64,000 bases of DNA, from NCBI RefSeq assembly GCF_902769175.1, contig NZ_CACXNW010000024.1, positions 1 to 64,000 on the forward strand, given 5' to 3'. Each line of letters starts with the position of its first letter. Within the stretch, counting starts at the first letter, position 1. Below the pieces are notes generated by a model. The model did not search any database, was not told where the DNA came from, and saw nothing but the letters and a program-made list of their open reading frames with translations. Shown in pieces: positions 31,162 through 53,485 of the stretch. The stretch is from an uncultured Methanobrevibacter sp. (GTDB lineage Archaea > Methanobacteriota > Methanobacteria > Methanobacteriales > Methanobacteriaceae). The position numbers were made by a program, and so were the translations under genes.

Positions 31162-31179
31162 CAACCCTTTATAAAAAAT

Positions 31180-31824: not shown

Positions 31825-31902
31825 CTACAATCACCAAACAAATTAAAAATAAAATGAATCATATAAAACTTTAAATTAAGATAACTATCAATAAATAAAA
31901 GA

Positions 31903-32610: not shown

Positions 32611-32677
32611 AAATCTCACCACAAAACCATATAATTATCAAATTTTCATTCTTTTTAATCAATTTTTTTTTAAATAT

Positions 32678-32728
32678 AAATAATCATTATTTGACTTATG
32701 CTTATTATAAGCAAAATAATCATTATTT
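32678..32728 (-). promoter_or_regulatory. Three perfect 15-bp palindromes at the DUF2162 promoter
   Basis: AAATAATCATTATTT occurs at 32678-32692 and 32714-32728, with TGCTTATTATAAGCA at 32699-32713 between them. All three are perfect with a single central base. The first overlaps the minus-strand TATA-like TTTATATTTAAA at about 32668-32680. The AATAATCATTATT core looks like Fur-type iron boxes, but the regulator is unknown. Confidence 0.7.
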
Positions 32729-32833
32729 AAGCATTTATAGAAACTAAAAATAAAATAAAAAAATAAAAATAAAAAAATTTTATTTTTAAGGGATAATTAA
32801 GACTACGAATCGATATTGGGAGATGATTGAAGA

Positions 32834-33844: not shown

Positions 33845-36800
33845 AGAGAGACCTCCCAGTAATCGAAGAAGTCATCATTGTCTAAAACACCATACTGGTT
33901 GGTATTACGACTAACGATAATGTGATCTGTATCAGATAATGCTCTCATAAATACTACTGGGTTTGTATCTCCCCAATAATATTTGGAATACATATTACCC
34001 ATCCTACCGATATAAAACTCGGATAACTCATCAGTATCATTCCAAGTCCAGGACATAGAGACCAATTTAGATATTCCTGCACCATAATCCCCATTTGGAG
34101 GTGCAAAAATACGAGTAATTGCATATTCCCCAGCAGTTGTGGAATTATAGCCTAAGCTCAAGTAATATATGCAATCTTCAAGCCAATGCTTAGCAACATA
34201 ATTATCATCTAATGACTCATTGGAAAGGCCTTTGAAACTGATGCTTCTCATTATTGATCTAATGGATTCATTTATTTGAGAACCATATGGGCCATTCATA
34301 AGGGTTTGATTTTTTACAATGGTATTATATGAACGAGCTAAAGTCAATCTAAATGCATTATCGATTAGGCGAGCTTGAGAACTGTATAAGTCTCTAAATA
34401 AACCGCTTGTAATAACGGTTACATCTATTCTTTTTTTAGCCCAACCTTCAGGACGGGTTAAATCCTCCAACGCAATGACATTTGGAATATCCTCAACTTT
34501 CTTACCGGTTGGAATTCCTTCCTCATCATATCCTGCACTGGAAGAGTCATGCCAAACCGGTTTCATGCCTAATAAATAAAGAACTGTAGAAACCAAAGCA
34601 CCATCATCCCTTGCAGTTTCAACACACCAAATACCAATGATTATCTTTTCGGTTGTATCATTTAAATCCGCTAAAGTCAATAAGGTAAGTGTTTTAGCAT
34701 AATTCCAAGCATCTTGAGTTGGAAGTTCAGATGATTGGTCCTGGAACATATTGGAACCAGTAGGAAGAACTTGAGGTACAGTTACACTTTCACCACCAAT
34801 ATTAACATGAATATACCTTCCATTCAATGCAGAAATCATGGAATCCAATTCATCATCCACACATACATTATACAAATCAATGTAATTCTTTGAAATGGTC
34901 AATGACGCTAAAAACTCAGGACTATCAATGCCTAATGTGGCAGAAACAGTCTCAACATCCCAATAAATCAAGGCTTTGCAGATATCTGCAGATTTATTCA
35001 AAATAAACTCCCTTTTTAAAGGGGATATGTTGGAATAATTATAACCATAATAATATTGAGACAATTGGTTTAGAAGATTGGTCTTTTCTCCATTGAATTC
35101 AAAATCATGTGAAGAAATAATTGAAACAGTGTTTGCCAAATCATCATCTGTCCATTTTTGACCGATTGCATGAAGTCCTAATGGATATAATGTATTTTGT
35201 GTATCCTTTAAGAATGCTGTTAATTTAGGACTTAAAACACTCATATCTGAATCGTTTATTTCCTTTTCGCTCATGCATAGAGTGAGATGATAATTATTGT
35301 CAATGATTAATTTTTTAATCTCCTTAGATAAGTTTGAATCTAAATTAGCATCAAAATTATCACTATTCCTGTTATTATCATATCTCTCCAATAAGTTAGC
35401 CAACTCAGTTAAGTTTCCATATAAATGGGTGAAGGATTTTGGAGAATCAAGATGTGAAATCAATACTGCAAATCCTCTCCTTTTAGCTTGGATAGCTTCA
35501 CCTAAACCATCAGTAATATAGAAATACACTTGAGGAACCTTTCCTACAACAATAGATCCATAATCATTATAGGATAAAAGAACCTCTTTTCCAGGCAGCC
35601 ACTCATGAGTTGCATGTCTTCCAACAAAAACCATAGCATTGGAATGTCTTGTTTGCATATAATAATATGCCGCCAGATATTGGTGTGTTGGAGCAACAGC
35701 AGTACAGTGATAAAGGTTTTCAATATCTGCTTCCCAACCACGTTGAGGTTCAGGACCAATGAACACATTTCCAAAGGTCAACCCAGGTATTACAAAGTAA
35801 TCGACACCATCACGATTGACAAGCATTATATTTCCCGGCGCTTCTCCCCAACCATTTAATCCTGAAACATTTAAGCTTTTAAATTCTGCGTAATAAGCTA
35901 AAAATTCATCATAATAACTGGATGAAGAGGTGTTTCCATACATTTTTAAGGCATTTACAATTTTATCAAGGACTTGAGTTGCAGCATAGGATTGGTTTTC
36001 CGGAAGCAATGCCTTAATCTCACTATACCATTGACTTAACATGGAATCCACTTCAAGGGTAAAGTTAATCAAAACTGCTTTCTTAACCATTTCCCCAATG
36101 TAAGCAACAGGCCCTTCAGAAACCTGCAATTTAACTATATCATCTAAAGAATTAAACCAAACCATATATTCATCTACTGGAAGAAGAGCGACACCTGAAT
36201 GGTTTGCCAATTTTTCTACCTCACCGGGAGCCCAATTAGCAACATTTATACCGCAAGTGATCATCATATCTTCAAGTTCAGAAACATTGTTTGGCAAATC
36301 GGTTAGATTATAACCCTCTTCCTTCAATGTTAAAAGCATATTGTAAACACTGGTTATGGCATCCAAATAACTTGCACCGATATTCTGTTTTCCAGGAGGG
36401 TAATTGTAATACACTATGGAAATCATCTTATCGATATTTGGAGTGTACTGTAAATCCACCCATGCATCCACTCTATCAACAAGCAAATTAATATTTTCAA
36501 TTTGTGGAACGAAAGTGTTTATATTGGCACCAGTTTTATTGGAAATGTAAGAATCGGCCCCTCCAATGAATGTAGCATCAAAAATACCCTGAGACTCGGC
36601 TATTGTTACATGCCACCATTTATCGCTTTTGGTAGTGCTTAATCCAATAGGGCTAAGTTCCCACTGTGAATTGGTAATGTATTCAGAGTGAACCGCTCTG
36701 AAAACAGGAACATCCGCATCTTCGAAGAAGTGAGTGGCATTGGTAAAGTTCTCTCCACCTACTCCATAAGCAACCATTGAAATGATTGCATCCACATTAA

Positions 36801-38130
36801 TGTCGAATTTTTCCGGATTGTCCAAAAAGCCGGTTATGTTAGAGCCTGCACTGGTCCAATATCTTATCATGATATTCAATTGTTCCGCATTACCTGCAGG
36901 ACAATAGATAGGAATTACATTGTACCCCTTTGCTTCTAAGGAATCAGTGATCTTATTCACCAAATCCAATTGCTGTGATTGAATATACATATTACTTTCC
37001 AAAATACCAATAGTTCGGTTATTGGATTGGTTGAAGAAAGTTTCAATATATTCATCTAATGAATACCACCTATCCCTAAAGATACCTGATGCCTGCACTC
37101 CAGTGAAATTAGGCTCCTCATATTGACAATCATGCCCTAAAAAGTTAAGAATATATAAAAGCTCATTTTTTAGATTGCCTTTGTCATTAATATCCTTATA
37201 CAACACTAAATTATTAAAGACATCTCCAAAAGAACTGCCATGATTTTCGATATAATCAAAAACCTCTTCAAAATTAGTTCCTCTTTTTGTGTTTTGATAA
37301 TAGTCCACTAAAACATCATTAGAGAAACTTGAAAATATCTTTTCATAATTAATTGTACAATTCCTAATTAGATTTAATGAGCTGGAACCAGAGTTAATGT
37401 TTCCAGTAGGAGATTCCAGCAAGAGGAATAGTTTTTTATCTGATAATGTAGGATATTTTCCAATTATGCTTGTTAATACAGCATCAACATTGGAACTAAC
37501 CCATTGCCCGATAAATGCATCACAAGATGCTAAAAGATCATAAATTTCCTCTTCAGACATGGCATTTATCTGATTTCCACTTCTAATGCTTATCTTAACA
37601 TTAGAAAAACTGGAATTATCCAATATTTCACATGAAACAGCATCAAAAAGGTTGTTACCAGTATTATCGCTTATTATAAAAATATTGAAAGTGTTTTCGT
37701 CCTTTAGAACATTTGAAGACTCAATGAGATTCAAATCAGCATTGACCACAGTATCATCGATAGATCCCAAATCAATAGAATTCAAAACACTATCACTGCC
37801 AGACCCTCTCTCTATTGAGTTTAAACCATCATTACTTAATTCATCATTAGATAATCGATTATCTATATTTTCAGAAACTAAATATGGATTGTTTTCAGAA
37901 ATATCCTCATTATTTCTATCTGAACCTATATCTTCCACAAAATAATTAGAATCACTGATATGATCATCAATAGAAAAGTCTATAGAATTATATATAGAAC
38001 CATCTGAAGAACCATCACTAATGGACCTAACAGTATCCTGATGATAACTACCAATAGTCAAATCATTACCGTCATCCAACATAGCATCACTGCTAGCTGA
38101 GACACCTTGAGGAACAATTAGAATCAGCAA
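33841..38130 (-). CDS. CobN/HmuS-like magnesium-chelatase-family large subunit, secreted (N-terminal part of split gene)
   Basis: A 1,429-residue CobN-family protein. VGRHATHEWLPGKE (about residue 843) and GLGEAIQAKRRGFAVLI (about 875) are the family hallmarks. The first 150 residues are a Ser/Asp/Asn-rich linker. The true start is probably the ATG ending at 38165: one extra A in the T6 run (plus strand) at 38147-38152 gives MKFNKKIFLVFLLLILIVPQ, a full signal peptide. With the 33844 frame the whole protein would be about 1,777 residues, secreted and anchored. Family members insert cobalt into corrins or, as HmuS, remove iron from haem. The neighbours DUF2162-TolQ-DUF2149 point to the HmuS type. 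Confidence 0.88.
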   Translation of the reverse strand: MLILIVPQGVSASSDAMLDDGNDLTIGSYHQDTVRSISDGSSDGSIYNSIDFSIDDHISDSNYFVEDIGSDRNNEDISENNPYLVSENIDNRLSNDELSNDGLNSIERGSGSDSVLNSIDLGSIDDTVVNADLNLIESSNVLKDENTFNIFIISDNTGNNLFDAVSCEILDNSSFSNVKISIRSGNQINAMSEEEIYDLLASCDAFIGQWVSSNVDAVLTSIIGKYPTLSDKKLFLLLESPTGNINSGSSSLNLIRNCTINYEKIFSSFSNDVLVDYYQNTKRGTNFEEVFDYIENHGSSFGDVFNNLVLYKDINDKGNLKNELLYILNFLGHDCQYEEPNFTGVQASGIFRDRWYSLDEYIETFFNQSNNRTIGILESNMYIQSQQLDLVNKITDSLEAKGYNVIPIYCPAGNAEQLNIMIRYWTSAGSNITGFLDNPEKFDINVDAIISMVAYGVGGENFTNATHFFEDADVPVFRAVHSEYITNSQWELSPIGLSTTKSDKWWHVTIAESQGIFDATFIGGADSYISNKTGANINTFVPQIENINLLVDRVDAWVDLQYTPNIDKMISIVYYNYPPGKQNIGASYLDAITSVYNMLLTLKEEGYNLTDLPNNVSELEDMMITCGINVANWAPGEVEKLANHSGVALLPVDEYMVWFNSLDDIVKLQVSEGPVAYIGEMVKKAVLINFTLEVDSMLSQWYSEIKALLPENQSYAATQVLDKIVNALKMYGNTSSSSYYDEFLAYYAEFKSLNVSGLNGWGEAPGNIMLVNRDGVDYFVIPGLTFGNVFIGPEPQRGWEADIENLYHCTAVAPTHQYLAAYYYMQTRHSNAMVFVGRHATHEWLPGKEVLLSYNDYGSIVVGKVPQVYFYITDGLGEAIQAKRRGFAVLISHLDSPKSFTHLYGNLTELANLLERYDNNRNSDNFDANLDSNLSKEIKKLIIDNNYHLTLCMSEKEINDSDMSVLSPKLTAFLKDTQNTLYPLGLHAIGQKWTDDDLANTVSIISSHDFEFNGEKTNLLNQLSQYYYGYNYSNISPLKREFILNKSADICKALIYWDVETVSATLGIDSPEFLASLTISKNYIDLYNVCVDDELDSMISALNGRYIHVNIGGESVTVPQVLPTGSNMFQDQSSELPTQDAWNYAKTLTLLTLADLNDTTEKIIIGIWCVETARDDGALVSTVLYLLGMKPVWHDSSSAGYDEEGIPTGKKVEDIPNVIALEDLTRPEGWAKKRIDVTVITSGLFRDLYSSQARLIDNAFRLTLARSYNTIVKNQTLMNGPYGSQINESIRSIMRSISFKGLSNESLDDNYVAKHWLEDCIYYLSLGYNSTTAGEYAITRIFAPPNGDYGAGISKLVSMSWTWNDTDELSEFYIGRMGNMYSKYYWGDTNPVVFMRALSDTDHIIVSRNTNQYGVLDNDDFFDYWEVSL

Positions 38131-38535: not shown

Positions 38536-41520
38536 CTATTTAATTACAACTTTTCCTTTTTTAGTGATCTTATTAAAGGTGCTGTCTCCTGCGAATTTTA
38601 CGGTAACTTTGTAAGTTTTCTTTTTAGATAACTTAACTTTTACTTTTGCAATTCCTTTTGCATTGGTTTTTGCAGTGTATTTTTTACCGTTTACAGTAAA
38701 GACTAACTTTTTACCTTTAATCGCTTTCTTGTTTGTTGCCTTAAGTGTAGCATACAAGTATTTGGTTTTTTTGCTTGCCTTATATGTTTTCTTGGTTACA
38801 GTCAATTTGACTTTTTGTGGATTGACTTTAACTTTTGTTACTACAAAGCTTCCGTTGTATTTATCATCACCGAGGAATGAAATCACAACAGGGTAAGTTC
38901 CTTTTTTGCTGAATGCAATTTTTACGGTTGCGACACCGTTAGCATTGGTTGTGCGTTTATATATATTGCCGTTTAAGGAAATCATCCCTTGTTTATTTGC
39001 TAAAACATTACCCTTACTGTCTTTTAAAGTAATGGAGAAGTTTTTACCTGCATTCTTACCATTGATTTTAGTGTTGACAGTTGTGGTTGTCATAGCTTTA
39101 GCTACAATATTTGTTGCTACTTTAACGACAGAAGAGCTTCCATTGGTATTAATGGATCCTCCTTGTGGAATGTTTATTCCAGAACCATCATTCAATCCTG
39201 CAATTTCAAAGTCAAATGTTTTTGCACCGTCCACTACATTATTGTCATTGATGTCAATTGGGTTGGAAGGAGCAAGAACTCCTCTTTCTGATTCAAGCTC
39301 GAATAATGTAATGGAACTAGCGACTACATTGTCATTTGCTTTAGCAACAGTGTTGTTTGCAATTTCAATAGCAGGGTTAACGATGGAGAGATCATCAGTG
39401 CCATTGGTTGCAATTGCCTTAATGAGCACATCACCATTGTTTGCTACAAAGTTAATTCCGCTGATACTTACATTATTTACACCAGCAGCAATGCTGAATA
39501 CAGGGTTTCCATCACCAGCAGTGAAAATGAATGCATTATCACCTACAATGCTAATGTCTTTGTTGATATTTATACCTGAAACATTCGCATATACACTATT
39601 TAAGTTTAATACTCCACCAATAGGAGTTTCATCTATAAGTTTTTGAAGATCACTTGCTTTTGGAATTGGAGCTTCAACTACAATGAATTGTTGTAATGCT
39701 AAAATAGTGGAACCGGTTGCAACAAATGAAACAGCGTTAGAACCTTTAAGTGAATCTTTCAAATCAATCACATAATCGCTTACTGAATTAGATGATCCGG
39801 ACCATACATTTTCATAAATCTTATCGTTTACAATAAGGTTACCTTCACCAGCTTGAGCACTAGCAGCAAATACATGCAAATCAGCACCAAGAATATCCTC
39901 AACCAAAACAGCACCAAGAACATTATTGCTTGCAACAATTCTTCCTAAGAAATTATTAGCATTAGACAACAAGTCAGCACCATTATACATATAAACGGTT
40001 TTAATTGTGTCTGATTCAGGCACATTGTAAAGTGTAACTAAAGTACTTGGATAAACAGCAGTCTTGTTAATCTCTTTTACCAATACGAAAGTGTTTTCAC
40101 CTTTTTGCAATAAGCTGGAAACATCATAGACTACAAGACCATAACCATACTTACCATAAGTACCCATATTAGACTGATCCCTATAGGAAGCAACAGGACT
40201 AATCTCTACACCATTAAAGGTAGTTGTCCAAACAGGAATGGTGCCATTTGTCTTGTCCCAATTATAAGCAACATAAACAAAACCATTTACGAAGCTAGCA
40301 TCACCCGGAACATCAAGAGTCCAAACATCAGTACGGCCACTGGAACCGGCAGCACAATATGTGGAATCATCCTTAGTATCAATTATCACATCCCCATTAA
40401 CAGTGATATTATCAAATGAAACAATAGACTCAGCAGGATAAGCCAAATCCTTACCCAAATTACCATTATACCACAAAGTAGGAGTGAGGGTAGATTCAGA
40501 AATGACCTTTCCATTACCATCAGAAATGACAATGGTGTAATTGACTTTAGTAGTGCTTATGCCATTGACAGTGTCAGCAGTGACAGGCCTAATGGTCTCA
40601 TCACGTAAATAGAAAGTGCCACTTGCACCAACATCAAGCTCAATTTCAGTGCTATTCACTTTAACGCCATCAGCATACAAGTCAATGACATAAGTGGATC
40701 TAATTACACCATCATTGGTAACATTAACTTGAATAACATTGTCAGTACCAGCAAATACCGCACCATTATATTCGGAACCGATTTTAGCACTTGCAGAAGG
40801 AACATTATACTCAACTACAATGAATTGCTCTAACGCTAAAATAGTGGAACCGGTTGCAACAAATGAAACTGGAATAGTAGTTTCAGGACCTAAGCCAAAG
40901 CCAACCTTGTTAACACTATTAGAACTGCCAGACCATACATTCTCATAACTGCCTCCCTTTACAATAACATTACCTTCACCAGCTTGAGCACTAGCAGCAA
41001 AGACATACAAGGTAGCATCAATAACATTCTCAAATGAATCAATAGTTAAAACATTGTTGCTCGCAACAACTCTACCAAGGAAATTGTTAGCATTAGACAA
41101 CAAGTCAGCGCCATTGTACATGTAAATTGTCTTTTCAGTAGAGAATTTGCTTACATTGTAAAACGCTACAAGAGTGCTTGGATAAACAGCAGTCTTGTTA
41201 AACTCTTTTTCCAATACAAAAGTGTTTTCACCTTTTTTCAATAAGCCGGAAACATCATAAAGGATAAGTCCATATCCATACTTACCGTAAGTACCCATAT
41301 TGGATTGATCCCTATAGGTAGCTACAGGAGTAACCGCAACACCATTAAAGGTAGAGGTGAAAGGAGGGACAGTCTGACCAGTCTTATCCCAATTGTAACA
41401 TACGTAAATAAATCCGTTAACAAACTGAGCATCATCAGGGACATCAAGAGTCCAAACATCAGTACGATTAGTAGCAGTAGCACCCATATAAGTAGAATCA
41501 CCCTGAGTATCAATTATCAC
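38536..41520 (-). CDS. Adhesin-like protein, DUF3344 and Ig-like domains (C-terminal part, cut off by a stop codon)
   Basis: A 994-residue open frame continuing the 42819 gene in the same frame after a TAA at 41569-41571. Two DUF3344 beta domains (each with RTDVWTLDVP, FVNGF and a YRDQSNMGTYGKYGYGL block) repeat with a period of about 377 codons and are almost identical at DNA level. A beta-helix segment (about residues 625-790) and two Ig-like domains rich in Lys (VNGKKYTAKTNAKGIAKVKV) follow. No membrane anchor. The nominal start at 41520 has no ribosome site, so the piece is unlikely to be translated alone. Role: cell-surface adhesion, by family. Confidence 0.82.
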   Translation of the reverse strand: MIIDTQGDSTYMGATATNRTDVWTLDVPDDAQFVNGFIYVCYNWDKTGQTVPPFTSTFNGVAVTPVATYRDQSNMGTYGKYGYGLILYDVSGLLKKGENTFVLEKEFNKTAVYPSTLVAFYNVSKFSTEKTIYMYNGADLLSNANNFLGRVVASNNVLTIDSFENVIDATLYVFAASAQAGEGNVIVKGGSYENVWSGSSNSVNKVGFGLGPETTIPVSFVATGSTILALEQFIVVEYNVPSASAKIGSEYNGAVFAGTDNVIQVNVTNDGVIRSTYVIDLYADGVKVNSTEIELDVGASGTFYLRDETIRPVTADTVNGISTTKVNYTIVISDGNGKVISESTLTPTLWYNGNLGKDLAYPAESIVSFDNITVNGDVIIDTKDDSTYCAAGSSGRTDVWTLDVPGDASFVNGFVYVAYNWDKTNGTIPVWTTTFNGVEISPVASYRDQSNMGTYGKYGYGLVVYDVSSLLQKGENTFVLVKEINKTAVYPSTLVTLYNVPESDTIKTVYMYNGADLLSNANNFLGRIVASNNVLGAVLVEDILGADLHVFAASAQAGEGNLIVNDKIYENVWSGSSNSVSDYVIDLKDSLKGSNAVSFVATGSTILALQQFIVVEAPIPKASDLQKLIDETPIGGVLNLNSVYANVSGININKDISIVGDNAFIFTAGDGNPVFSIAAGVNNVSISGINFVANNGDVLIKAIATNGTDDLSIVNPAIEIANNTVAKANDNVVASSITLFELESERGVLAPSNPIDINDNNVVDGAKTFDFEIAGLNDGSGINIPQGGSINTNGSSSVVKVATNIVAKAMTTTTVNTKINGKNAGKNFSITLKDSKGNVLANKQGMISLNGNIYKRTTNANGVATVKIAFSKKGTYPVVISFLGDDKYNGSFVVTKVKVNPQKVKLTVTKKTYKASKKTKYLYATLKATNKKAIKGKKLVFTVNGKKYTAKTNAKGIAKVKVKLSKKKTYKVTVKFAGDSTFNKITKKGKVVIK

Positions 41521-41568: not shown

Positions 41569-42819
41569 TTAAGCCAAATCCTTACCCAAATTACCATTAT
41601 ACCACAAAGTAGGAGTGATAGTGGATTGATTTAAAATTTCTCCAGTATCCTTATCTGATACAATTACAGTATAATTTACTTTAGTAGTGCTTACGCCATT
41701 TACAGTGTCAGCAGTGACAGGTCTAATGAGATCATCAATTAAATAAGTGCTGGAACTTAAACCTTCATCCAATTGAATTTCAGTGCTATCCACTTTAACG
41801 CCGTCAACATAGAAATCTACTATATAGACTGTATCAGATTCTCCCTTATTGGTTAAATTAAGCTGTAAAACATTATTGGTACCAGCAAATACAGCACCAT
41901 CATATTCAGAACCTAATTTAACGCTTACTGCAGGGGTATGTTTAGTAACGGTCAATACTGATAATGTGTTTCTAAATGAAAATGCCCCTTCACCTGGAGC
42001 ATACACCAAAGTATTGGTAGCATTGGTGAATTTATCTAAAACATCCCATTGATGATATTTGAAGTAATAGACTCCTTCATCATAAGCAGTAGATTCCTCT
42101 AATTCCTTACCATTAAAAGAATAAAGACCATCAATGCTTGAAAGTGCGAAATTATCCAATGTAGCTTTAGAAATTTCACAGCTTATTGTTCCGACATCAA
42201 AAGTAGCCTTGGATGTGTCTGTAGAATCACCTTTAATCCAAGATGAGCCAGAGTTAACCCAATAGCAAATCTTATCACTATCACCATCATTATATGCAAA
42301 TACCAAACCAATCAATTTGATTTTGTTGTAGTATTCATTTCCTTCAAGAGCTCCAGTGTTAACATTGAATGTAACTTTGCCGCTAACACCTTGAAACTTT
42401 TCAGTAAGATTATAAGTCATATAATAATCAGCATAACATTTAGTGGTATGGTTGTTGATAGTGTATACAGTACCATCTTGGCTGCCTTGAGTGGAAACAA
42501 GCATTTCATTTGCAATTTGTTCTGTCTCTCCATTGGAGGTCACACTAACGTTGGCTTCAGATCCATATACTGTATTTGAAGACCCCGCAGTATAGCAATC
42601 GACAAACAGCCCTGCATACTGCACATTTTGGACATCCTCTGGAATATCATAACTTAATTCTCCATTTTCAGCTCCTGGATTAGAGTAGGCTACATCCACT
42701 CCTCCTGAAACTTCACCTTCTTGAACTGTATCTAAATCATCTGCAGAAGCAGCCCCCATAGACACTACAAGACACAGAAGAATTAAACTCGCAAATATAA
42801 ATTTATATTCACTTCTCAT
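41569..42819 (-). CDS. Adhesin-like protein, signal peptide and first DUF3344 domain (N-terminal part)
   Basis: A 416-residue frame starting MRSEYKFIFASLILLCLVVS, a signal peptide cut near residue 26, after GGAAGG. A DUF3344-type domain and a CARDB-like region (VKLGSEYDGAVFAGTNNVLQ) follow. It ends TPTLWYNGNLGKDLA-stop. The internal repeat 1,131 bases downstream has TAT (Tyr) where this copy has TAA, so one base change in a codon has cut a protein of about 1,426 residues. If translated, the short form would be a secreted, unanchored fragment. Confidence 0.85.
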   Translation of the reverse strand: MRSEYKFIFASLILLCLVVSMGAASADDLDTVQEGEVSGGVDVAYSNPGAENGELSYDIPEDVQNVQYAGLFVDCYTAGSSNTVYGSEANVSVTSNGETEQIANEMLVSTQGSQDGTVYTINNHTTKCYADYYMTYNLTEKFQGVSGKVTFNVNTGALEGNEYYNKIKLIGLVFAYNDGDSDKICYWVNSGSSWIKGDSTDTSKATFDVGTISCEISKATLDNFALSSIDGLYSFNGKELEESTAYDEGVYYFKYHQWDVLDKFTNATNTLVYAPGEGAFSFRNTLSVLTVTKHTPAVSVKLGSEYDGAVFAGTNNVLQLNLTNKGESDTVYIVDFYVDGVKVDSTEIQLDEGLSSSTYLIDDLIRPVTADTVNGVSTTKVNYTVIVSDKDTGEILNQSTITPTLWYNGNLGKDLA

Positions 42820-43245: not shown

Positions 43246-43596
43246 TTAATTAGTCTTATTCTGAACCATAATCAGCTTACCCGTAGATGGATCCTTATAG
43301 ACCTTTCCCATCTCGGTATAGCCTTGACCGGTTTGATTACTTGTATCAGGAGTTTCATTTAATATTTGTCCTTCCTGAACTTCAGTCACTTCCTGATTCA
43401 TAGCATCCATAACCTGTTCCTTCTGTTCAGGAGTTAAGTTTTCATTAAATAAAACGCTTTGCATATTCCAAGCAAGCACTAGAAATACAAGCAAACCTAC
43501 AGCTATAACCAACATTGCATCTACAAGGTTGGTAGTTCCTGCCATAGGGTCTTCTTCCTCGCTTTCAAAACGTTTATTGCATCTGCGACGAGCCAT
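43246..43596 (-). CDS. DUF2149 protein, second copy
   Basis: A 116-residue paralogue of the protein at 30814, sharing EEDPMAGTTNLVDAMLVIAV, LLVFLVLAWNMQSVLF and the C-terminal GQGYTEMGKVYKDPSTGKLI. One membrane span with the same buried aspartate. It follows the second TolQ-like gene by 216 bases, a wider gap than in the first operon, with its own palindrome in between. There is no CobN or DUF2162 gene beside this pair; its neighbours are adhesins. Which surface protein it energises is unknown. Confidence 0.86.
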   Translation of the reverse strand: MARRRCNKRFESEEEDPMAGTTNLVDAMLVIAVGLLVFLVLAWNMQSVLFNENLTPEQKEQVMDAMNQEVTEVQEGQILNETPDTSNQTGQGYTEMGKVYKDPSTGKLIMVQNKTN

Positions 43597-43812: not shown

Positions 43813-44544
43813 CTATTTCAATCTTTGATCTCTTCTGTCAATATTGTCTAAAATTGCATCCATCAATGCATCAAGGTTTGCTAAATATTCACCAAACCAT
43901 CTACGTCTCAACTTGGAGGCAACATAGGTTGCTGCACCAGATCCAATACCTAAAATGGTAGTGTTGAACGCAACGGTAATCGCACTTGCAAGAGCGGTGA
44001 CATCACCGGTACCTAATGCTGCAAGACCAGGACCCATAGGAATCAATGTACCCATAAGCCCAAGGGTAGGACCAATTTTAGTAACAATGTCTGTCTTTTG
44101 AAGTTTTTGAGTTACCTTATCCTCTTCATTATCAATCAATCTACGTGCCAAGGTTTCTCTAGATTTTTTGCTTAGATGTTCAGAGTCAGCAAGCTCTAAC
44201 AAAACACTCTTTTGAGATGTTTGAATATCTGCATTATTGACAATATTTTTAATATCGTCAGAAGACTCTGCATCATAAATGTCGTAAATCATTTCCTTGA
44301 TTAATTTAACTGGTACTTTCTTACGAGAGAAGTATTCTGATAATAGCTTCCCTAAAGTAAATACAGCGTACACTAAAATTACCAATAAAATAATGATTAC
44401 AGGTATCTGTAAACCTTGAGTAATGGCAGACATTGAAGTATCCAGAAATTGGCTAGTCCAATTCATACCTGAAGATACTGACAATCCTCCACCAGATTGA
44501 TACATAGCTTCATTAGCAAAAATTATAATAGTATTTATAGCCAT
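43813..44544 (-). CDS. MotA/TolQ/ExbB proton channel family protein, second copy
   Basis: A 243-residue paralogue of the protein at 31180. The C-terminal half is almost the same (VTKIGPTLGLMGTLIPMGPG, then AFNTTILGIGSGAATYVASK), while the N-terminus has about 25 extra residues, part of them outside the membrane. Three spans. GGTGAT precedes the ATG ending at 44544. It lies downstream of the CxDG adhesin, 376 bases away across A/T-rich sequence, so it probably has its own promoter. Confidence 0.9.
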   Translation of the reverse strand: MAINTIIIFANEAMYQSGGGLSVSSGMNWTSQFLDTSMSAITQGLQIPVIIILLVILVYAVFTLGKLLSEYFSRKKVPVKLIKEMIYDIYDAESSDDIKNIVNNADIQTSQKSVLLELADSEHLSKKSRETLARRLIDNEEDKVTQKLQKTDIVTKIGPTLGLMGTLIPMGPGLAALGTGDVTALASAITVAFNTTILGIGSGAATYVASKLRRRWFGEYLANLDALMDAILDNIDRRDQRLK

Positions 44545-44920: not shown

Positions 44921-47900
44921 CTATTTGATTCTAACCTTACCAACTCTGGAGACTGCAAGATATTTGGAATCTCCTGCAAATCTTACTGTGTATTTGTAAA
45001 GTTTTTTCTTGGATAATTTGACTTTTACAGTTGCTACACCTTTGCTGTTGGTTTTTGCAACATATTTTTTACCATTTACAGTAAATACAATCTTTTTGGA
45101 CTTGACAACTTTTCCAGCAGAATCCTTTAAGGTTGCAGTTAACTTTTTGACTTTAACTGCTCTCTTATAGGTTCTGTTAGGTACAGCCAATTTGGTTTTG
45201 GTCTTGATGACCTTAACTGTAATGGTTCTGGAGCTAGCAGCATAAGTTGCATCTCCTGCAAACTTGAGACTTACCTTAAATGTTTTAACTGCATTTAATG
45301 TCAACTTGATTTTAGCTTGACCTTTTGCATTGGTATTGGCACTGAAGGTTTTGCCGTTTACAGTTGCAGTAATCTTTTTGCTTGCAAGCAATTTTTTAGC
45401 TCCGTCCCTAATAGTTACATAAATGTATTTTGCAGTGTTTGTAACTGTGAAAGACTTGTTTGGAGAAGTCAAGCTTGTAGACTGCTTGGTTAAAGTAAGC
45501 TTGCCTGTGCCTGCTTTTGCTTGATATTCCTTATCTCCAGCAAAGCTTGCTGAAATGGTGTAAGAACCACCAGATGTCAAAGCAATTTTAACGCTTGCCA
45601 CTCCATTGGCATTGGTTAGAGCAGTGTAAGTTTTGCCATTTACAGTGAAAGTAATGGTTTTATTGCTTAATGCTACGCCATTTTCATCCTTAAGAGTTGC
45701 AGTTAAGGTTTTTGTTGCATCAGTTGTCTTATATGAAACATTGCTTACAGTCACTACTGTGCCTATCTTGCGGACAGTTACAGTTCCAGTAGCTGAAGAA
45801 GGAATGTATTTGTCATCTCCAGCAAATTTCATTTGGATATCATAGGTTCCAGCTTCCTTAATGTTAAGCTCTAAGATAGCTGAACCATCACCATCTGTAG
45901 TCAAGTTATATTCTGTATTGTTGAAGATTAGACAGATAGGTTTCTCTGCTAATGTTTTTCCTTCTTTGTCCTTTAAGACTACTTTAAAGAATATTGCGTT
46001 TTCATAAGCTTCGAAAATTGTGACTTCAACATTTTCAAATGAGAACTCGGTTTTCAAGTTCTTGTTAAATACATTATTTTCAATTGTATTATCTGCACTT
46101 GCATTGTAATTGACAACATCAGGGATTTCCTTACCTGATACGATTGTGAAATTATTGTATTCAATATCAGAGCCAAATACCTTGTTTCCAAGTAAAATGC
46201 ATGCAGTAAGGTAAGATCCGTTAACAGTTACATTATTATAAGTGAATGTGTTGTTTGCAGATCCAATAGCTGTACTGTTTAAAGGTGCTCCAATAATACC
46301 AATTCCATAAACAACCGGGTCATTGGAAGAGACAATAATGGAATTGTTTGAAATGACATTATCAAATCCGCCATAGTGGATGAACACACCAGCGATTGTA
46401 TTGAATGATTCATTTAAGTCATAATCGCCAAGATTGGAGCTGACATTAACAGTGTTGTGTGTGAAAGTAATGTTAGATGAATGAACCATTAGGAAACCAT
46501 AAGTTCTGTAAAGGCCTGATACCATGTGGGAACCAGGAACAACACCATCTAAAATAGTGCTTGAGCCAGAGCCGTCAGCACAGATAGTAGTTCCATCAGC
46601 ACAAATGATGGTACCGTCAGCGCAAATGGTGGTTCCATCTGGACAGACGATGTCTCCATTTTCATTTGTTGTATATTCTCCAGGAGCATAAACGCTTCCA
46701 TCTGGACAGACAACAGAGCCATCAGGGCAAACCACAGTTCCATCTGCACAAATCACATTTCCATCAGGACAGATAGTAGTTCCATCTGCACAAATGATGT
46801 TTCCGTCAGCACAAATGGTAGATCCATCTGTACAGATTACATTTCCATCAGGGCATAAGGTAGTTCCGTCAGCACAGATAATGGATCCATCTGGACAGAC
46901 TTCACAATTTTCAGAGCTGATGGTTGAACCGTCAGGACAGACAACAGAGCCATCAGGGCAGAGGACATATCCTCCTGCATATATTTTGTCTCCATTAGGC
47001 ATGAGTATTGTACCATCAAGACAATAGGTAATTCCATCTACACATAAAGAGCCATCAGGACAAATGTTAGAATCATCATATGAACTAGTGGAACCGTCTG
47101 GGAAGATAATGCGTCCATCAAGACATACAATGATGCCACCAGCACATAATCTGTAATCTTCTGAACTGATAGTTGTAACTCCATCAGGACAAAGCAAAGA
47201 TCCGTCAGGACAGATTGTGTAACCGTCTGGACATACGAATGCACCATCTACACAAGTGTTGGCATAAACATTAAGGTATCCGTCTAAACAGCTTTTATTG
47301 TTTACAAGATAAGTTTCACCGGTTCCAATTGTCTTAAGGCTGTTTCCATCAAGGAAAACATTATGGGAATTAAAGGAAAGCACTGCTACTGTGAAGTAGT
47401 TTCCTCTTGCCTCTAATGAGTTGTTTAATATTGTACAATTGGAAGCATCTAAAATATAAATTGCAAATGCAGAGTAGGAATCATAAATGGAAATATCACA
47501 GTTTTGGACTGTTACATTGTTTACGCCATTTATTTGAATACCCCACATGCGGTCCATATTGTTTAGGTTTGGATTGCTGATTGTGATGTTTTCAAAAAGA
47601 ACATCATTTTCATTTATAAGGAATGTAGTATCGTTAAACACTGCATTTTGACCAGTGATGGTGACCTTGTTGTTGATGTTTAACTTTCCTTTGCTGGAGA
47701 ATGAACCTACAACTATTAAAGTGTCATTTTCCTTAATCAAATTAGTGAAAGCTCCAGTAAGGTCAAAGTATTTGTTGAAATTAGCTTCATTGATATAATG
47801 GGTTGTGTTCTCATCTTCTGGACTTGGACCTTCTCCACCACCGATAACTATATTGTTGATTTCGGTGATATTGACACATTCTGCATCCAATTCTATTGCT

Positions 47901-49375
47901 TGGCTTGCATTTGTATAGAATATGTTGTTTTGAATGAGAATGTCATGAGGAGCCTTGGTTCTTGATTGGTTTTGCAATCTCACTGCAGCAACATCACTTG
48001 AATTTATGACATTTGAGTCAATAACAATATTGGAGTAATCACCTTGGGTGTATATACCGTATTGGGTAACATCCAAAATGTTATTGATTACTGTAACATT
48101 ATTTGCATTGATTTCCATACCTTTACCATCATTTTGAATGGTGTTATCGGTTACTACAGAATTTTTAGCAGCATAGATACTTGCATTAACATGGGAATTG
48201 GAAATTGAATTGCCTTGCACCAAGGAATTTGTGGTTACATATATTGCATAATCTCCACCTTCGTCATTGGTGTTTCCGCTGTACCAGGTTCCATGAATAT
48301 TGCTGATGTTATTTCCTATAACCTTATTTCCAGATTGGGTTGCACCAATACCTCTGTATACATTGTAGACAGTATTGTTGATTATTTCATTGTTTGCACC
48401 CATGACTTGAATACCATAACAGAATGATGAAGGCAATGGAACTTTACCATTTTCGTCAAGAGCCCATTCAATACCCCTTAAACTGTGAACAGTATTGTTG
48501 AAAATGTAATTGTTACCATTAACACCACCAGATTGACCCATATCTCCTCCATTCAAATAGCCTGTTAAGTAGATAGCATTTGAGTCATTTACAGTTACAT
48601 TGTTGTTTGAAATGTTGTTGTAAAATGATCCGCTTAAGACAATACCTGAAGGATGGCCCCATCCCACTACATAACATGTGGTCTTGATTGTATTGTTGAT
48701 AATGTTTGAGTTATTCACTGTGTTGAATAAAATCGGATATGATTTACTTGCATTAGCGAATAGATTACAGTTTTCCACTGTAATTTTACTTACATTGAAA
48801 ACATCAATGATAGGAGTTTCCAATTTATCCATAGTCATGTTCAAATTGGAAATTTTGGTTCCTTGAGCTCCTTGAATGATTTTTAAATTACAATTGATGA
48901 ATTTAGCAGTTCCATCGGTGGATTTGAAAGTCAATGGAATGTTAATTACAAAGCTTAATCCACTGAATGTTCCAGAACAATCCAAAATATCTCCAGATGC
49001 TAATTTGCCAGATTTTATATTACCATTTGAATCAAAATAAGTGCTGTAGTCACTATTTTTGAACTTATATGTAGATGCAAGGTTTGATGTCTTTAATGTA
49101 TTTTTCACACCTACAGATTTTTCTTCAACTTCATCGCTAACAGCATCATCTATGTTTGAAATAGCATCTTCATCAGAAGCCTGAAGACTGTTAGGATTCA
49201 CATCATTAACCATATTAGAATCATCGATTGCATTAACAGATTGCCCCTCATCTGTTAAGTCAATATTGGCTAAGGCATCATCCAAATCATCAGCATCAGC
49301 TGCACTGATGGATCCAATAGCCAATATCAATAAAAGCAATAATCCCAATAATGGCAAAATCTTATTAGAATTCAT
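44921..49375 (-). CDS. Adhesin-like protein: beta-helix with inserted CxDG heptad domain and Ig-like tail
   Basis: A 1,484-residue secreted protein. A signal peptide covers residues 1-25 (ILPLLGLLLLLILAIGSISA). An acidic linker leads to a right-handed beta-helix of NosD type (about 100-690). Residues about 695-937 are a cysteine-rich tandem domain of heptads such as ICADGTT and VCPDGSV. The helix resumes (about 940-1090), and four Ig-like repeats with Lys-rich strands (FTVNGKTYTALTNANGVASV) end the protein. No membrane anchor. GAGGTG precedes the ATG ending at 49375. It is followed by a terminator and the second TolQ/DUF2149 pair. Adhesion is the family role; the job of the CxDG part is unknown. 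Confidence 0.9.
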   Translation of the reverse strand: MNSNKILPLLGLLLLLILAIGSISAADADDLDDALANIDLTDEGQSVNAIDDSNMVNDVNPNSLQASDEDAISNIDDAVSDEVEEKSVGVKNTLKTSNLASTYKFKNSDYSTYFDSNGNIKSGKLASGDILDCSGTFSGLSFVINIPLTFKSTDGTAKFINCNLKIIQGAQGTKISNLNMTMDKLETPIIDVFNVSKITVENCNLFANASKSYPILFNTVNNSNIINNTIKTTCYVVGWGHPSGIVLSGSFYNNISNNNVTVNDSNAIYLTGYLNGGDMGQSGGVNGNNYIFNNTVHSLRGIEWALDENGKVPLPSSFCYGIQVMGANNEIINNTVYNVYRGIGATQSGNKVIGNNISNIHGTWYSGNTNDEGGDYAIYVTTNSLVQGNSISNSHVNASIYAAKNSVVTDNTIQNDGKGMEINANNVTVINNILDVTQYGIYTQGDYSNIVIDSNVINSSDVAAVRLQNQSRTKAPHDILIQNNIFYTNASQAIELDAECVNITEINNIVIGGGEGPSPEDENTTHYINEANFNKYFDLTGAFTNLIKENDTLIVVGSFSSKGKLNINNKVTITGQNAVFNDTTFLINENDVLFENITISNPNLNNMDRMWGIQINGVNNVTVQNCDISIYDSYSAFAIYILDASNCTILNNSLEARGNYFTVAVLSFNSHNVFLDGNSLKTIGTGETYLVNNKSCLDGYLNVYANTCVDGAFVCPDGYTICPDGSLLCPDGVTTISSEDYRLCAGGIIVCLDGRIIFPDGSTSSYDDSNICPDGSLCVDGITYCLDGTILMPNGDKIYAGGYVLCPDGSVVCPDGSTISSENCEVCPDGSIICADGTTLCPDGNVICTDGSTICADGNIICADGTTICPDGNVICADGTVVCPDGSVVCPDGSVYAPGEYTTNENGDIVCPDGTTICADGTIICADGTTICADGSGSSTILDGVVPGSHMVSGLYRTYGFLMVHSSNITFTHNTVNVSSNLGDYDLNESFNTIAGVFIHYGGFDNVISNNSIIVSSNDPVVYGIGIIGAPLNSTAIGSANNTFTYNNVTVNGSYLTACILLGNKVFGSDIEYNNFTIVSGKEIPDVVNYNASADNTIENNVFNKNLKTEFSFENVEVTIFEAYENAIFFKVVLKDKEGKTLAEKPICLIFNNTEYNLTTDGDGSAILELNIKEAGTYDIQMKFAGDDKYIPSSATGTVTVRKIGTVVTVSNVSYKTTDATKTLTATLKDENGVALSNKTITFTVNGKTYTALTNANGVASVKIALTSGGSYTISASFAGDKEYQAKAGTGKLTLTKQSTSLTSPNKSFTVTNTAKYIYVTIRDGAKKLLASKKITATVNGKTFSANTNAKGQAKIKLTLNAVKTFKVSLKFAGDATYAASSRTITVKVIKTKTKLAVPNRTYKRAVKVKKLTATLKDSAGKVVKSKKIVFTVNGKKYVAKTNSKGVATVKVKLSKKKLYKYTVRFAGDSKYLAVSRVGKVRIK
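46565..47291 (-). repeat. Coding tandem array of CxDG heptapeptides (21-base unit)
   Basis: By hand count about 25 CxDG tetrads and 27 cysteines fall in some 243 residues, most at a strict seven-residue spacing (pattern [IV]-C-[PA]-D-G-[ST]-x). A few units are decayed (IFPDGS, LMPNGD, IYAGG, VYAPGE). The array interrupts a beta-helix at a point where the related adhesin at 50072 has a single ICIDG. Confidence 0.9.
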
Positions 49376-50071: not shown

Positions 50072-53000
50072 TTATTCTACTTTATCATCATCGTCTCTTG
50101 AGTTTAAGAAACTGAAACAGAAAATCAATATAAGCACTAATGCTGCTACAGGAACATAAGCACTGTTTGAAATTGATTTAGAAGCAACTTCCTCCAATTC
50201 ACTAGCAACAAGGTCTTCACCTATGCCACCAGATCCAGCATCTCCGGCACCATCATTTGCAGCAGACAAAGCATTTGCAAGCAAATTAGATACCATGTTA
50301 CCAAAGGAACTTGCTCCACTTGATGCATCATTACCTGAACGAGCAGAACTACCTTTATTAGGGTTGTCTCCGCCTTTGACATTTCCTCCGGAATTTTCAT
50401 TTGAATTTTCATTTGAATTTTCAAATGGGCCCTTGAATTTGGAACCAGTGTTTCCAAAGATATTATTTCTTCCAGTATTGTCATCCACTGCAGCGTTTCC
50501 ACCACCGTTTTTAGAATACAGTTTATTATGGGAAACGGTATTTCCATAAGAGTTTCTTATGGTAATAGCTGCATTACCATTGGTACGGATTCTGTTGTTG
50601 GAAATAATGTTTCCATTGGAACCTTTTTCAAGCAATATTCCTGTTGGAATCAATGAAACGGAATCCGGATGCTCAGGTCCTATGAAAGGATCATATTTCT
50701 GGCTGCTTAAAATGTAAATGTCATTGTCAGAAATATTGTTTCCAGAAGATGCATAAAGACCTATTTCACTGAAACTGCCGTTTACAAAATACTTGTTCTT
50801 ACTGATTTTGTTATTCCAAGTGGAATAACCTTCAGTAGCATAAATACCTGCTCTACCAGTAAGGTTAAAGGTATTCTCTTCAATGTCAGCTCCACCGGAA
50901 ATCTCTAAAGTCAAACCATAGGTATAGTTTAGAGAATTAAGGTCTAAAGTGTTGTTTCTAATCTTTGTATTCATAGAGTTATGTCTTAAGATAATACCTG
51001 TAGCAAAATAATCTGCCGTTACATTGATGTAATTGTTTTTGATAGTATTGTTCCATGCTTGGGTTACAGATTTACTTGTGTCATCCCCTGAAATACCCAT
51101 TCCATAAAGGAAAGGATCATGTCCTTTTACATAGATCTTATTGCCATCAATTAGGTTTCTATTAGATTCATAATAGATATAGAGACCTATAAGGATGTTT
51201 ACAGAAGGATTATAAGCCTTTTGATAAGTCTTGATATTAGAGGTAACATTTATAGTATTCTTAAGGAACTTATTGTCAGATGAGAAATCAAAGATTACAC
51301 CATAAGTCTTTGTAAGCTCCCCAATACTGCGTTGTCCATCTATACAGATGCTGTCAAAGTATTGGTATATTTCATCAGTACCTACAACATTGATTGTATT
51401 GTTCCTAAAGGTTGATTTATAGACTTCGTAGTTAAGCAATCCGAATACTAAGTTCTTACCTTCACAAGTTATCTTATTATTTGTTACAGTATCATTAAAT
51501 GAATCGCATAAGTAAATACCGTAAGAGGCATTCTTATCCCAAATCTTGATGTTATTTCCAGTTATGATTGCATTATCTGCTTCAAATACATAAATACCCC
51601 AAAGGTTGCAATTGTCATCACTTCTGCCGTTATTGTCAATTGTGAAATTTTCCACTTTACAGTTAGGAGCATTGATAACTACAGTTGTATTGTATAATAT
51701 TGCCTTATCAGCAATAATGCTTACTGTTTTGTCTAATACCAATTTTCCTTTAGGAGTGAAGTTTCCTGTGAAAATCAATACATCTCCATCATGTACAATG
51801 TCTTTTAATCCATTTGAATCGAAATAGGTATCATAATTGCTTTCAGTGACTTCATAAATGTTTCCATCACCATAGGAAGGGTCATAAGATGAAGACATTG
51901 GGAATATAATACTTTTTCCAAAGATTTCATTGTTTTCACATAAATAAAGCACAGGAGACAATTGTGCAATGTTTATTGCATAATTGTTTGAAGTGTAAAT
52001 AGTGTTGCCGTATATGGAAAAATTATATGGCCTTTTAGATCTTGATTGATAAACAGAATAAATACCTAAACCTAATCCAGTACCTTGGGAGGCACCAATA
52101 TTGGTTAGGGAATTGATTATGTTCTCATAAATCTCAACATCTACAGGGTCACCATATATGGAGATTCCAGCACCCTCAAGATAATCTATTGTATTGTTAT
52201 GGACTTTAGAACTGTTTCCCTTTTCAGGATTTCCAATCCTAATTCCATCACCGGATGCATTGATTTGTATATAATTGCCATATACGTCACAATTTGAAGC
52301 TACAAGTATACCTGCTTGATTAATATCTGCATTGTAAATAGAGTTATTGGCTATTAAACAACCTTCTGAACTTTTAATAGCAAAATCTCCACCATAACCT
52401 AAACTTTCATCATAACCAGTAATGTTATAGATTTCATTTCCAACGATAATGTTGTTTCCACGTCCTCCAGCATCTATACCTCTATAAAGCCCTATGATAG
52501 TGTTATCAAGAACCTTATTTCCAGAACCTGTCAAATATACACCTCCAGCCCAGAAGGAAGGAAGTTCAGAGGTTGCTCGAATAGTATTGTTTGCTAAAGT
52601 GTTGTTGTCAGAGACACCATCTCCATAACAAAGGTAGATTCCGTAGGAATTTTCAACTGTAATGTCATTATTGACAATTGAATTCCTATGTGCATCCCTT
52701 AAGCTAATACCGGAATGTTGCCAACTGTTATTATCTGTGGAATTCTCATCAGAAACATTATTGTTTTGGCTAATTGATGATGGATCAATTGGAATAACGG
52801 TTTTAATCCTATTATTGTTGACAATTGAATCTGTCGTAAATTGGTCTAATGAGATTGGATAGCCATTGTGTCCAGTGGTAAAAATATCGTTGTTCAATAT
52901 TTTCACATGGTCTGAGCCGATAATCCATACAGCAGAAATATCTACAAGGTTTGATTCAATATTCAAGTTTGAAATAACTGCATCATATTTGAAGTCCTTG

Positions 53001-53485
53001 TTTGAAACATTCACAAAGTAGATAGGTGAATTTTTCAAAAATGCCTCATTTTCTGTACTTGTAATTGTAATCGGAATATTAATTATAAAATTATTTCTAG
53101 AAAAATTACCAGACAAATTAAGGGTATCATTAGCCTTTACTAATGATTTATTTAAATTTCCTTTTGAATCAAAATATTTAGAATAATTCTCAGGAGTTAC
53201 AGTGTGAACTTTATTGTTCCCGGAATCGGATTTAGGTTCTTCTACAATATCTGTCTCTTCAATGACGTCATCTTCTGAAATCTCTGCAGATTGAGCTTCA
53301 GGACTTGCATCCTCAGAAGAGATAACTTCAGTTACACTTTCTTGAGAATTGGAAACAGTTGGTTCATAACTATCTGTTAAGTTAGATAAGGAATTATCAT
53401 CTGCTGCAGAAACTGCATTTAATCCAACTAAAAGAAAGATCAAGACAAATAAAATGCCAAATCCTTTTATTCTTTTATTTATCAT
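50072..53485 (-). CDS. Membrane-anchored adhesin-like protein with NosD-type beta-helix
   Basis: A surface protein of about 1,137 residues. The N-terminal signal peptide (FGILFVLIFLLVGLNAVSAA) is followed by an acidic linker and then two long right-handed beta-helix blocks rich in N-N-x-I turns and in IYLCYG/GIYVF strands. The C-terminus has a Ser/Asn/Gly linker and one membrane span (VPVAALVLILIFCFSFL) with the tail NSRDDDDKVE, so this protein stays in the membrane, unlike the other adhesins here. The ATG ending at 53485 follows GGAGGTGG and is preferred over an in-frame TTG. It is related along its length to the adhesin at 44921 but has one ICIDG where that one has the heptad array. Confidence 0.9.
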   Translation of the reverse strand: MINKRIKGFGILFVLIFLLVGLNAVSAADDNSLSNLTDSYEPTVSNSQESVTEVISSEDASPEAQSAEISEDDVIEETDIVEEPKSDSGNNKVHTVTPENYSKYFDSKGNLNKSLVKANDTLNLSGNFSRNNFIINIPITITSTENEAFLKNSPIYFVNVSNKDFKYDAVISNLNIESNLVDISAVWIIGSDHVKILNNDIFTTGHNGYPISLDQFTTDSIVNNNRIKTVIPIDPSSISQNNNVSDENSTDNNSWQHSGISLRDAHRNSIVNNDITVENSYGIYLCYGDGVSDNNTLANNTIRATSELPSFWAGGVYLTGSGNKVLDNTIIGLYRGIDAGGRGNNIIVGNEIYNITGYDESLGYGGDFAIKSSEGCLIANNSIYNADINQAGILVASNCDVYGNYIQINASGDGIRIGNPEKGNSSKVHNNTIDYLEGAGISIYGDPVDVEIYENIINSLTNIGASQGTGLGLGIYSVYQSRSKRPYNFSIYGNTIYTSNNYAINIAQLSPVLYLCENNEIFGKSIIFPMSSSYDPSYGDGNIYEVTESNYDTYFDSNGLKDIVHDGDVLIFTGNFTPKGKLVLDKTVSIIADKAILYNTTVVINAPNCKVENFTIDNNGRSDDNCNLWGIYVFEADNAIITGNNIKIWDKNASYGIYLCDSFNDTVTNNKITCEGKNLVFGLLNYEVYKSTFRNNTINVVGTDEIYQYFDSICIDGQRSIGELTKTYGVIFDFSSDNKFLKNTINVTSNIKTYQKAYNPSVNILIGLYIYYESNRNLIDGNKIYVKGHDPFLYGMGISGDDTSKSVTQAWNNTIKNNYINVTADYFATGIILRHNSMNTKIRNNTLDLNSLNYTYGLTLEISGGADIEENTFNLTGRAGIYATEGYSTWNNKISKNKYFVNGSFSEIGLYASSGNNISDNDIYILSSQKYDPFIGPEHPDSVSLIPTGILLEKGSNGNIISNNRIRTNGNAAITIRNSYGNTVSHNKLYSKNGGGNAAVDDNTGRNNIFGNTGSKFKGPFENSNENSNENSGGNVKGGDNPNKGSSARSGNDASSGASSFGNMVSNLLANALSAANDGAGDAGSGGIGEDLVASELEEVASKSISNSAYVPVAALVLILIFCFSFLNSRDDDDKVE

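Follow-up and report, generated by a model that had tools for sequence, protein, structure and literature searches.

The locus described here raises two questions: how a dense run of cysteines came to stand in the middle of a beta-helix surface protein of a methanogen, and what it could do there. The protein (1484 residues, positions 44921–49375, minus strand) is encoded in a 64,000-nucleotide stretch of a contig from an uncultured Methanobrevibacter sp., the whole of which is referred to below as the window. It has a signal-like N-terminus, judged by eye, a Pfam Beta_helix match (1e-12) and C-terminal Ig-like domains (Big_3_5/Big_1; 9.5e-25 for Big_3_5). A beta-helix, Ig-like repeats and secretion, here suggested by the N-terminus, are traits of the adhesin-like beta-helix class.

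The CxDG Loop in the Window

The beta-helix is interrupted by an expanded loop, residues 687–947 (46535–47317, minus strand), which flank HMMs delimit between a conserved left flank (IGTG) and a conserved right flank (GSHMVSGLYRTYG), and which contains 27 cysteines and 26 CxxG cores. The right flank (45980–46534, minus strand), also of the beta-helix, forms the first row of the family profile A1. The array proper, counted from the first to the last array cysteine codon, extends from C696 to C932 (46580–47290, minus strand) and holds 25 CxDG tetrads and 27 of the 37 cysteines of the entire protein; no more than four CxDG appeared in any of 5,000 shuffles of the whole protein or 5,000 shuffles of the array alone. 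Among the 25 successive CxxG spacings of the loop, 18 are exactly seven residues, the others being 21 (three times) and 6, 12, 14 and 15 (once each). The earlier note's count of about 25 tetrads with 27 cysteines, mostly at seven-residue spacing, is thus confirmed, and the core of the extent it proposed (46565–47291) stands, the inserted loop being slightly wider as bounded by the flank HMMs. Its statement that the array is inserted in a beta-helix also holds, since an AlphaFold model of the loop with its flanks (33 rows; mean pLDDT 70.9, pTM 0.57) shows the flanks as beta-helix rungs with block pLDDT mostly above 80.

The units of the array are diverged, imperfect copies, as judged from the 64–77% match of the Tandem Repeats Finder rows, which have periods of 21, 42 and 63. 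In the ten arrays inspected the Cys, Asp and Gly codons have diversified at their wobble positions (the units were picked by motif, which makes this codon count illustrative rather than a formal selection test), so that the units appear to be more than fresh copies; together with the match of the repeat rows, this points to an array that has aged enough for synonymous drift while the motif was retained.

A paralog (50072–53485, minus strand), with a C-terminal membrane-helix-like stretch recognised by eye, aligns on both flanks and has, as had been claimed, one ICIDG at the same site: its loop, EIYQYFDSICID, comprises 12 residues (51338–51373), as against 261 in the array protein.

Relatives and Loop Diversity

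Genomes were compared at one per species. The array used as a query gave matches in 43 of 199 related genomes, some of them only to unrelated DG-heptad membrane proteins; the same-strand array matches listed contain no internal stop codon. Profile A1, built from 31 rows of the right-hand beta-helix flank, finds the family, with the array present or absent, in 95 of the 138 genomes of the window's family (E ≤ 1e-15), with one to three matches per positive genome, and the named A1 scan comprises 65 loci, mostly from Methanobrevibacter and Methanosphaera. The family set of 95 sequences (93 distinct relatives and two from the window) was reduced to 87 measured loops by dropping eight without a left anchor (three truncated ORFs and five of Methanosphaera type), and then to 86 tree rows by dropping L082, which is short of 150 right-flank residues. 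With both-flank HMMs the 87 loops fall into three classes: 55 with at least two CxxG, 15 with one and 17 with none. At one extreme are loops of 12 residues with one C[IL]DG, that of the window paralog included, and at the other a loop of 357 residues with 35 CxxG. As arrays occupy the same site in many Methanobrevibacter-type relatives, and recur across many independent assemblies, an assembly chimera or collapse was rejected as their origin.

Several members of this set deserve separate mention. The longest array, that of L029, contains two similar long blocks, so duplications above one unit seem to occur too. One array gene with CobN upstream (L085) lies on a contig from a rumen MAG labelled Acholeplasmatales, most likely a mis-binned Methanobrevibacter. 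The ORFs L058–L062 (375–655 residues; from the window's genome and its relatives) carry DG heptads (LADGSVQ) without CxDG; these proteins, which we take to be of the YhgE membrane-protein type, were rejected as array relatives in spite of their weak matches, and their heptads are convergent and unrelated to the array. A tblastn search of phage and plasmid records returned one phage and ten plasmid matches at 25–45% identity, the best of them a Borrelia hypothetical protein (E 6e-14).

Repeated Expansion at One Site

A maximum-likelihood tree was built from the flank only, with the array excluded (86 rows), and each loop was labelled as none, single, CIGQ-type or by its commonest period (4, 5, 6, 7, 12 or 14), labels such as p6 and p12 being derived, for some rows, from just two or three units. 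At least 18 changes of label are needed on this tree, compared with a mean of 53 for shuffled labels; the loop type is therefore heritable yet often changing. Period 4 occurs on two separate branches, with the period-4 member L128 placed on a long branch, and period 5 needs at least three changes. Throughout the 55 array members the core remains CxDG in 492 of 539 CxxG, at spacings of which 7 (223) and 14 (164) are the commonest and 4 (16), 5 (22), 6 (22) and 12 (7) recur less often. Cysteine makes up 9.0% of the residues in their loops (564/6,271) and 0.78% elsewhere (560/71,985).

The length of the loop changes among close relatives. When flank identity is at least 80% (15 pairs), six pairs have loops of equal length, five differ by 28 or 42 residues, and the other four by 27, 55, 97 and 177; when it is 65% or more (158 pairs), the length is the same in 13, is offset by a multiple of seven in 46 and by some other amount in 99. 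Whole-unit changes are thus common, and larger or irregular ones also happen. The proposal that the array grew from a single CxDG loop by unit copying is supported by these pairs and by the single-copy and arrayed relatives sharing one site. In the array a single conserved CxDG turn between beta-helix flanks has been amplified in a way that varies by lineage, and the site offers a clear example of one short turn amplified repeatedly, with differing periods, at one homologous site. Since CxDG is kept while the period varies, the conserved trait is the turn and its multiplicity, with no fixed repeat geometry; a strict solenoid, one of the folds suggested earlier, is spoken against as the conserved trait by siblings with periods 4, 5 and 6.

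Other states of the same site are also found. In the Methanosphaera clade Met-Phe replaces the Cys-Ile of CIDG in 11 of 12 loops inspected by eye, of which L100 and L133 are near copies, the exception (L113) having Gln; methionine in place of this cysteine is another candidate sulfur ligand. In a third paralog, the nine rows without the cysteine lack methionine at the loop site as well. In a supported clade of six (L077, L091, L093, L102, L105 and L108), cysteine motifs such as CIGQ or CLGD precede the lone CLDG, which is a distinct arrangement of this same loop.

Named Domains and Predicted Fold

The earlier note recognised no named domain in the heptads. Strictly, the window array passes the cut-off (26.8 bits) of DUF6799 (PF20606), with 57.0 bits for the whole protein and 77.7 for the array alone; that name, however, carries little meaning here. 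The best stretch corresponds to profile positions 24–49, i.e., 26 of 63, and the match neither covers most of the domain nor is shared across the arrays of the homologous site. Of eight sibling arrays scanned, L063, L076 and L071 exceed the DUF6799 cut-off, L078 matches PF21300 in its place, and L119, L128, L141 and L090 have no Pfam match over cut-off. The unrelated DG-heptad membrane protein L060, taken as a control, reaches 19.6 bits to DUF6799, and a search for the DUF6799 family in the window's own genome gave no match, but neither did its 14 control genomes. As loops of the same site fall into different Pfam entries according to their local spacing, the DUF6799 match is weak evidence of common descent, and DUF6799 was rejected as an explanation because sibling arrays match another family or nothing.

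PF21300 is the antifreeze beta-roll of grasses, in which seven-residue strands pair into coils of about 14 residues. L078, the sole period-14 array scanned, matches it with 89.8 bits (cut-off 30), L071 remains under the cut-off with 21.7 bits, and the window array has no match at E ≤ 1. A profile headed by period-14 rows gives 1.4e-4 against PDB entry 3ult, of the same fold; it also matches the repeat region of an unrelated toxin fusion entry at 1.7e-5, which indicates that repeat matches of this kind are unspecific. The L078 and 3ult matches suggest that two seven-residue strands can close one coil, and the long arrays may reasonably be guessed to form a narrow beta-roll. In the AlphaFold model the window array has low confidence (block pLDDT 24–71), with short strands at seven-residue steps in most heptads, best in the strict seven-residue stretch. 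Foldseek matches to Rhs/teneurin shells were rejected (TM-score ≤ 0.12, rmsd about 15–19 Å, in the low-confidence array), and so were PDB sequence matches of the array to lactonases and reductases (best E 0.011).

Gene Neighbourhood

All partner genes considered here are on the minus strand of the window, like the array gene. Directly downstream of the latter lies the gene of a MotA/TolQ/ExbB-family channel protein (43813–44544; PF01618, 6.9e-11), followed by that of a DUF2149 protein of the HmuV family (43246–43596; PF09919, 5.1e-23). Two surface proteins identified with Pfam come next, one with DUF3344 (41569–42819), between the two modules, and one with DUF3344 and Ig-like domains (38536–41520). 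The second module, 30814–38130, is a CobN–DUF2162–ExbB–DUF2149 cluster in which CobN is split into two overlapping ORFs: a CobN/Mg-chelatase family protein (33841–38130; PF02514, 2.7e-179) and a separate C-terminal part (32834–33844), with a four-base overlap and a membrane-helix-like tail seen by eye. A predicted DUF2162 transporter (31903–32622; PF09930, 1.1e-70), a second MotA/TolQ/ExbB-family protein (31180–31824; PF01618, 4.1e-12) and a second DUF2149 protein (30814–31164; PF09919, 4.9e-24) complete it. Against the PDB, the 33841–38130 protein matches ChlH (1.7e-65), HmuS (9d26, 3.4e-62) and CobN (1.6e-54), a set that does not tell which activity this putative chelatase would have. Neither HmuY nor the TonB-dependent receptor HmuR was found among the 15 window proteins scanned with Pfam. 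It is also worth mentioning that about 1.5 kb from the second DUF2149 gene a 705-residue protein is encoded (27171–29288, minus strand) with 20 cysteines (2.84%); it matches Chlam_PMP weakly and may also be a Cys-rich surface protein.

In relatives, partner genes were searched by tblastn with the window proteins within 9 kb of 54 array loci, the window itself not being counted; in the window, the only array locus with all the partners on one contig, CobN is about 10 kb from the loop. CobN is present at 40 of the 54 loci and ExbB with DUF2149 at eight others, and the partner genes are on the same strand in every case, with no opposite-strand instance among the 54 loci. CobN and ExbB/DUF2149 never occur together within 9 kb of an array locus (0/54), nor does DUF2162 occur there (0/54). 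Six loci have neither partner, and five of these have less than 6 kb of upstream sequence; at one of the latter, L131, a CobN match lies about 4 kb before the open frame. When the 35 loci with at least 7.5 kb upstream are considered, 30 have CobN upstream on the same strand, four have ExbB and DUF2149, and only L068, with 10 kb of upstream sequence, has no partner gene. Matches to PF02514, fragments included, number one to six per positive genome (104 of 138 genomes), and a rough binomial estimate of chance is below 1e-39, to be read with the loci being related and the counts not independent. At L078 the CobN ORF stops some 176 bases short of the array gene and, judged by eye, has a tail resembling a membrane anchor. 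No CobN match was obtained in five same-genus genomes with an array protein, namely G003 and G015, which are incomplete (68% and 86%), and G008, G013 and G016; in these, the partner could be ExbB/DUF2149.

Cysteines are not required for the partnership. Among 14 single-CxxG members six have CobN and six ExbB with DUF2149, and of the 17 members whose loop has no Cys motif 10 have partners nearby. At three Cys-less loci, Methanosphaera loci among them, CobN, DUF2162, ExbB and DUF2149 all lie within 9 kb, one of the three having CobN on the other strand. The third paralog without a Cys motif (L103, L104, L106, L110 and L111) follows DUF2149 and ExbB genes, which suggests that the pairing of beta-helix and ExbB is independent of the cysteine loop. 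With partners both in the presence and in the absence of cysteines, the beta-helix family itself is the regular partner: the genes of this secreted-looking family regularly stand next to a CobN-type chelatase gene or else to an ExbB-like and DUF2149 pair. Of the name "beta-helix adhesin" given to the protein by the earlier note, the first half is upheld by the predicted flanks, while the second becomes doubtful because the gene accompanies CobN or ExbB–DUF2149 genes; an accessory role in uptake or chelation would be likelier than adhesion.

Possible Functions of the Array

The preferred reading, to which we give somewhat less than even credence, is that the array acts as a thiol/carboxylate antenna, by which a surface chelatase or an ExbB-type system would be supplied with captured metal ions or metallo-tetrapyrroles. 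The protein would be the outward-facing substrate-capture part of such a system, presumably in physical contact with CobN or ExbB. A single thiol turn would have been the ancestral ligand site, and its amplification would have given an antenna of reduced thiols and carboxylates that holds metallo-tetrapyrroles or soft ions of Fe, Ni, Co and Zn, with a capacity set by array length, which strand slippage would allow to change; for the long arrays of period 7 and 14 the fold may be a narrow beta-roll in which the cysteines stack. In favour of capture count the retention of CxDG through separate expansions and in diverged codons, the enrichment of cysteine in the loops, the CobN or ExbB–DUF2149 neighbours of most array loci and the methionine of the Methanosphaera clade. 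Against it weigh the partners of Cys-less members, the third paralog with neither residue at the site, the separation of CobN from ExbB/DUF2149 at array loci, the same-genus genomes with no CobN match, the partnerless L068 and the low model confidence in the array, and DG-rich heptads of many other proteins are not known to have a role with metals. A heme-regulatory Cys-Pro motif was rejected as not general, proline following the cysteine in only 80 of 539 cores.

Free thiols are favoured by the lack of any VKOR match in the 41 genomes searched and of any DsbA-like Thioredoxin_4 match over cut-off in all 19 (the window's genome and 18 genus-mates; a single weak match below cut-off in G006), the positive controls giving matches in three and nine of 14 genomes, respectively. 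The disulfide ladder considered earlier is disfavoured on these grounds, and reduced thiols that bind metal are plausible for the array. The same negative results weigh on the idea that the thiols are linked to each other, to the cell wall or, as thiol-mediated adhesion, to host or partner surfaces, as do the reducing habitat and the chelatase or ExbB genes as neighbours. A surface location is likely from the signal-like N-terminus and Ig-like domains, the local thiols are dense, and adhesin-like proteins, a class that may include this family, are enriched on vesicles of gut archaea according to one report (PMC12134236); still, cross-linking appears improbable, the least favoured of the explanations considered.

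The main rival to the antenna is a structural spacer, in which a stiff narrow beta-roll or turn-rich stalk pushes the beta-helix part outward or mediates self-association, cysteine being a core or turn residue tolerated under anoxia. The match of the period-14 array L078 to PF21300, that of the period-14-led profile to 3ult and the short strand in most heptads of the window-loop model all speak for a spacer, whereas the beta-roll geometry is impossible for periods 4, 5 and 6, whose arrays keep CxDG nonetheless; moreover, the constant residue is cysteine and not a hydrophobic one, and some loops have a single CxDG. We regard a spacer as rather unlikely. A lower probability still, in the range of the distinctly unlikely, is given to a neutral or antigenically useful hypervariable repeat, in which slippage would enlarge whatever short coding unit a surface loop contains, the array varying under host or phage pressure with no fixed function. 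Such variation is real, flanks about 80% identical being found with loops of 357 vs 180 or 148 vs 245 residues and equal loops being so few in the wider set of pairs. However, CxDG survives separate expansions and diverged codons, the listed same-strand matches are without an internal stop, and cysteine is otherwise rare in these proteins.

A wider form of the antenna reading is that single-membrane methanogens own an hmu-like surface machine, consisting of an external CobN chelatase, an ExbB/DUF2149 motor and perhaps a DUF2162 transporter, with a beta-helix thiol-antenna receptor, and that species tune the capture of metals or metallo-tetrapyrroles by copying CxDG with any slippage period. 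This we hold to be unlikely, and it is made less probable by CobN and ExbB/DUF2149 never both being within 9 kb at array loci. 

Methane formation needs nickel, iron and cobalt, and a surface capture device, if the antenna reading is true, would therefore be central to the physiology of methanogens in the rumen and gut. At least one group of gut-methanogen "adhesin-like" proteins would then leave the adhesin category.

Comparison with Known Systems

CobN, ExbB and DUF2149 are the families of HmuS, HmuU and HmuV of the iron-regulated hmu operon, as described in two papers (PMC10434189, PMC10100974). HmuS takes iron out of heme, and archaea are described as lacking complete hmu operons, with their CobN homologs unassigned, in the 2025 HmuS paper (PMC12583661); the antenna, if true, would provide a testable role for these archaeal CobN/HmuS homologs, for which that paper sees no possible assignment. 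According to the same papers (PMC12583661, PMC10434189, PMC10100974), the heme-iron system hmuYRSTUV of Bacteroidota shares with the window a CobN-family chelatase, a MotA/TolQ/ExbB protein and DUF2149. The window has the counterparts all on one contig and strand and adds a beta-helix protein with a CxDG loop as a partner, whereas in relatives the array gene stands by CobN or by ExbB–DUF2149, not by both within 9 kb. Any equivalence of the DUF2162 protein to HmuT is putative. In a single-membrane archaeon the role of the array protein would roughly parallel that of HmuY/HmuR for the Hmu proteins of Bacteroidota.

Two further likenesses concern the repeat itself. DG-containing heptads are common to the Pfam family DUF6799 and the arrays of the window, L063, L076 and L071. 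Compared with the grass ice-binding beta-roll (PF21300, PDB 3ult), the array is cysteine-rich, and the likeness gives no ground for assuming that it binds ice or descends from a common ancestor. The array proteins are likely to be annotated as adhesin-like proteins (ALPs) of Methanobrevibacter, with which they share a secreted appearance, the beta-helix and Ig-like domains; they differ from ALPs in general as a subfamily defined by the flank profile and often encoded beside CobN or ExbB–DUF2149 genes. No published description of the array or its gene partnership was found in the open-licence literature. The system is one of known kinds of parts, a beta-helix surface protein, CobN and ExbB/DUF2149, combined with an unusual, repeatedly evolved array of cysteine turns.
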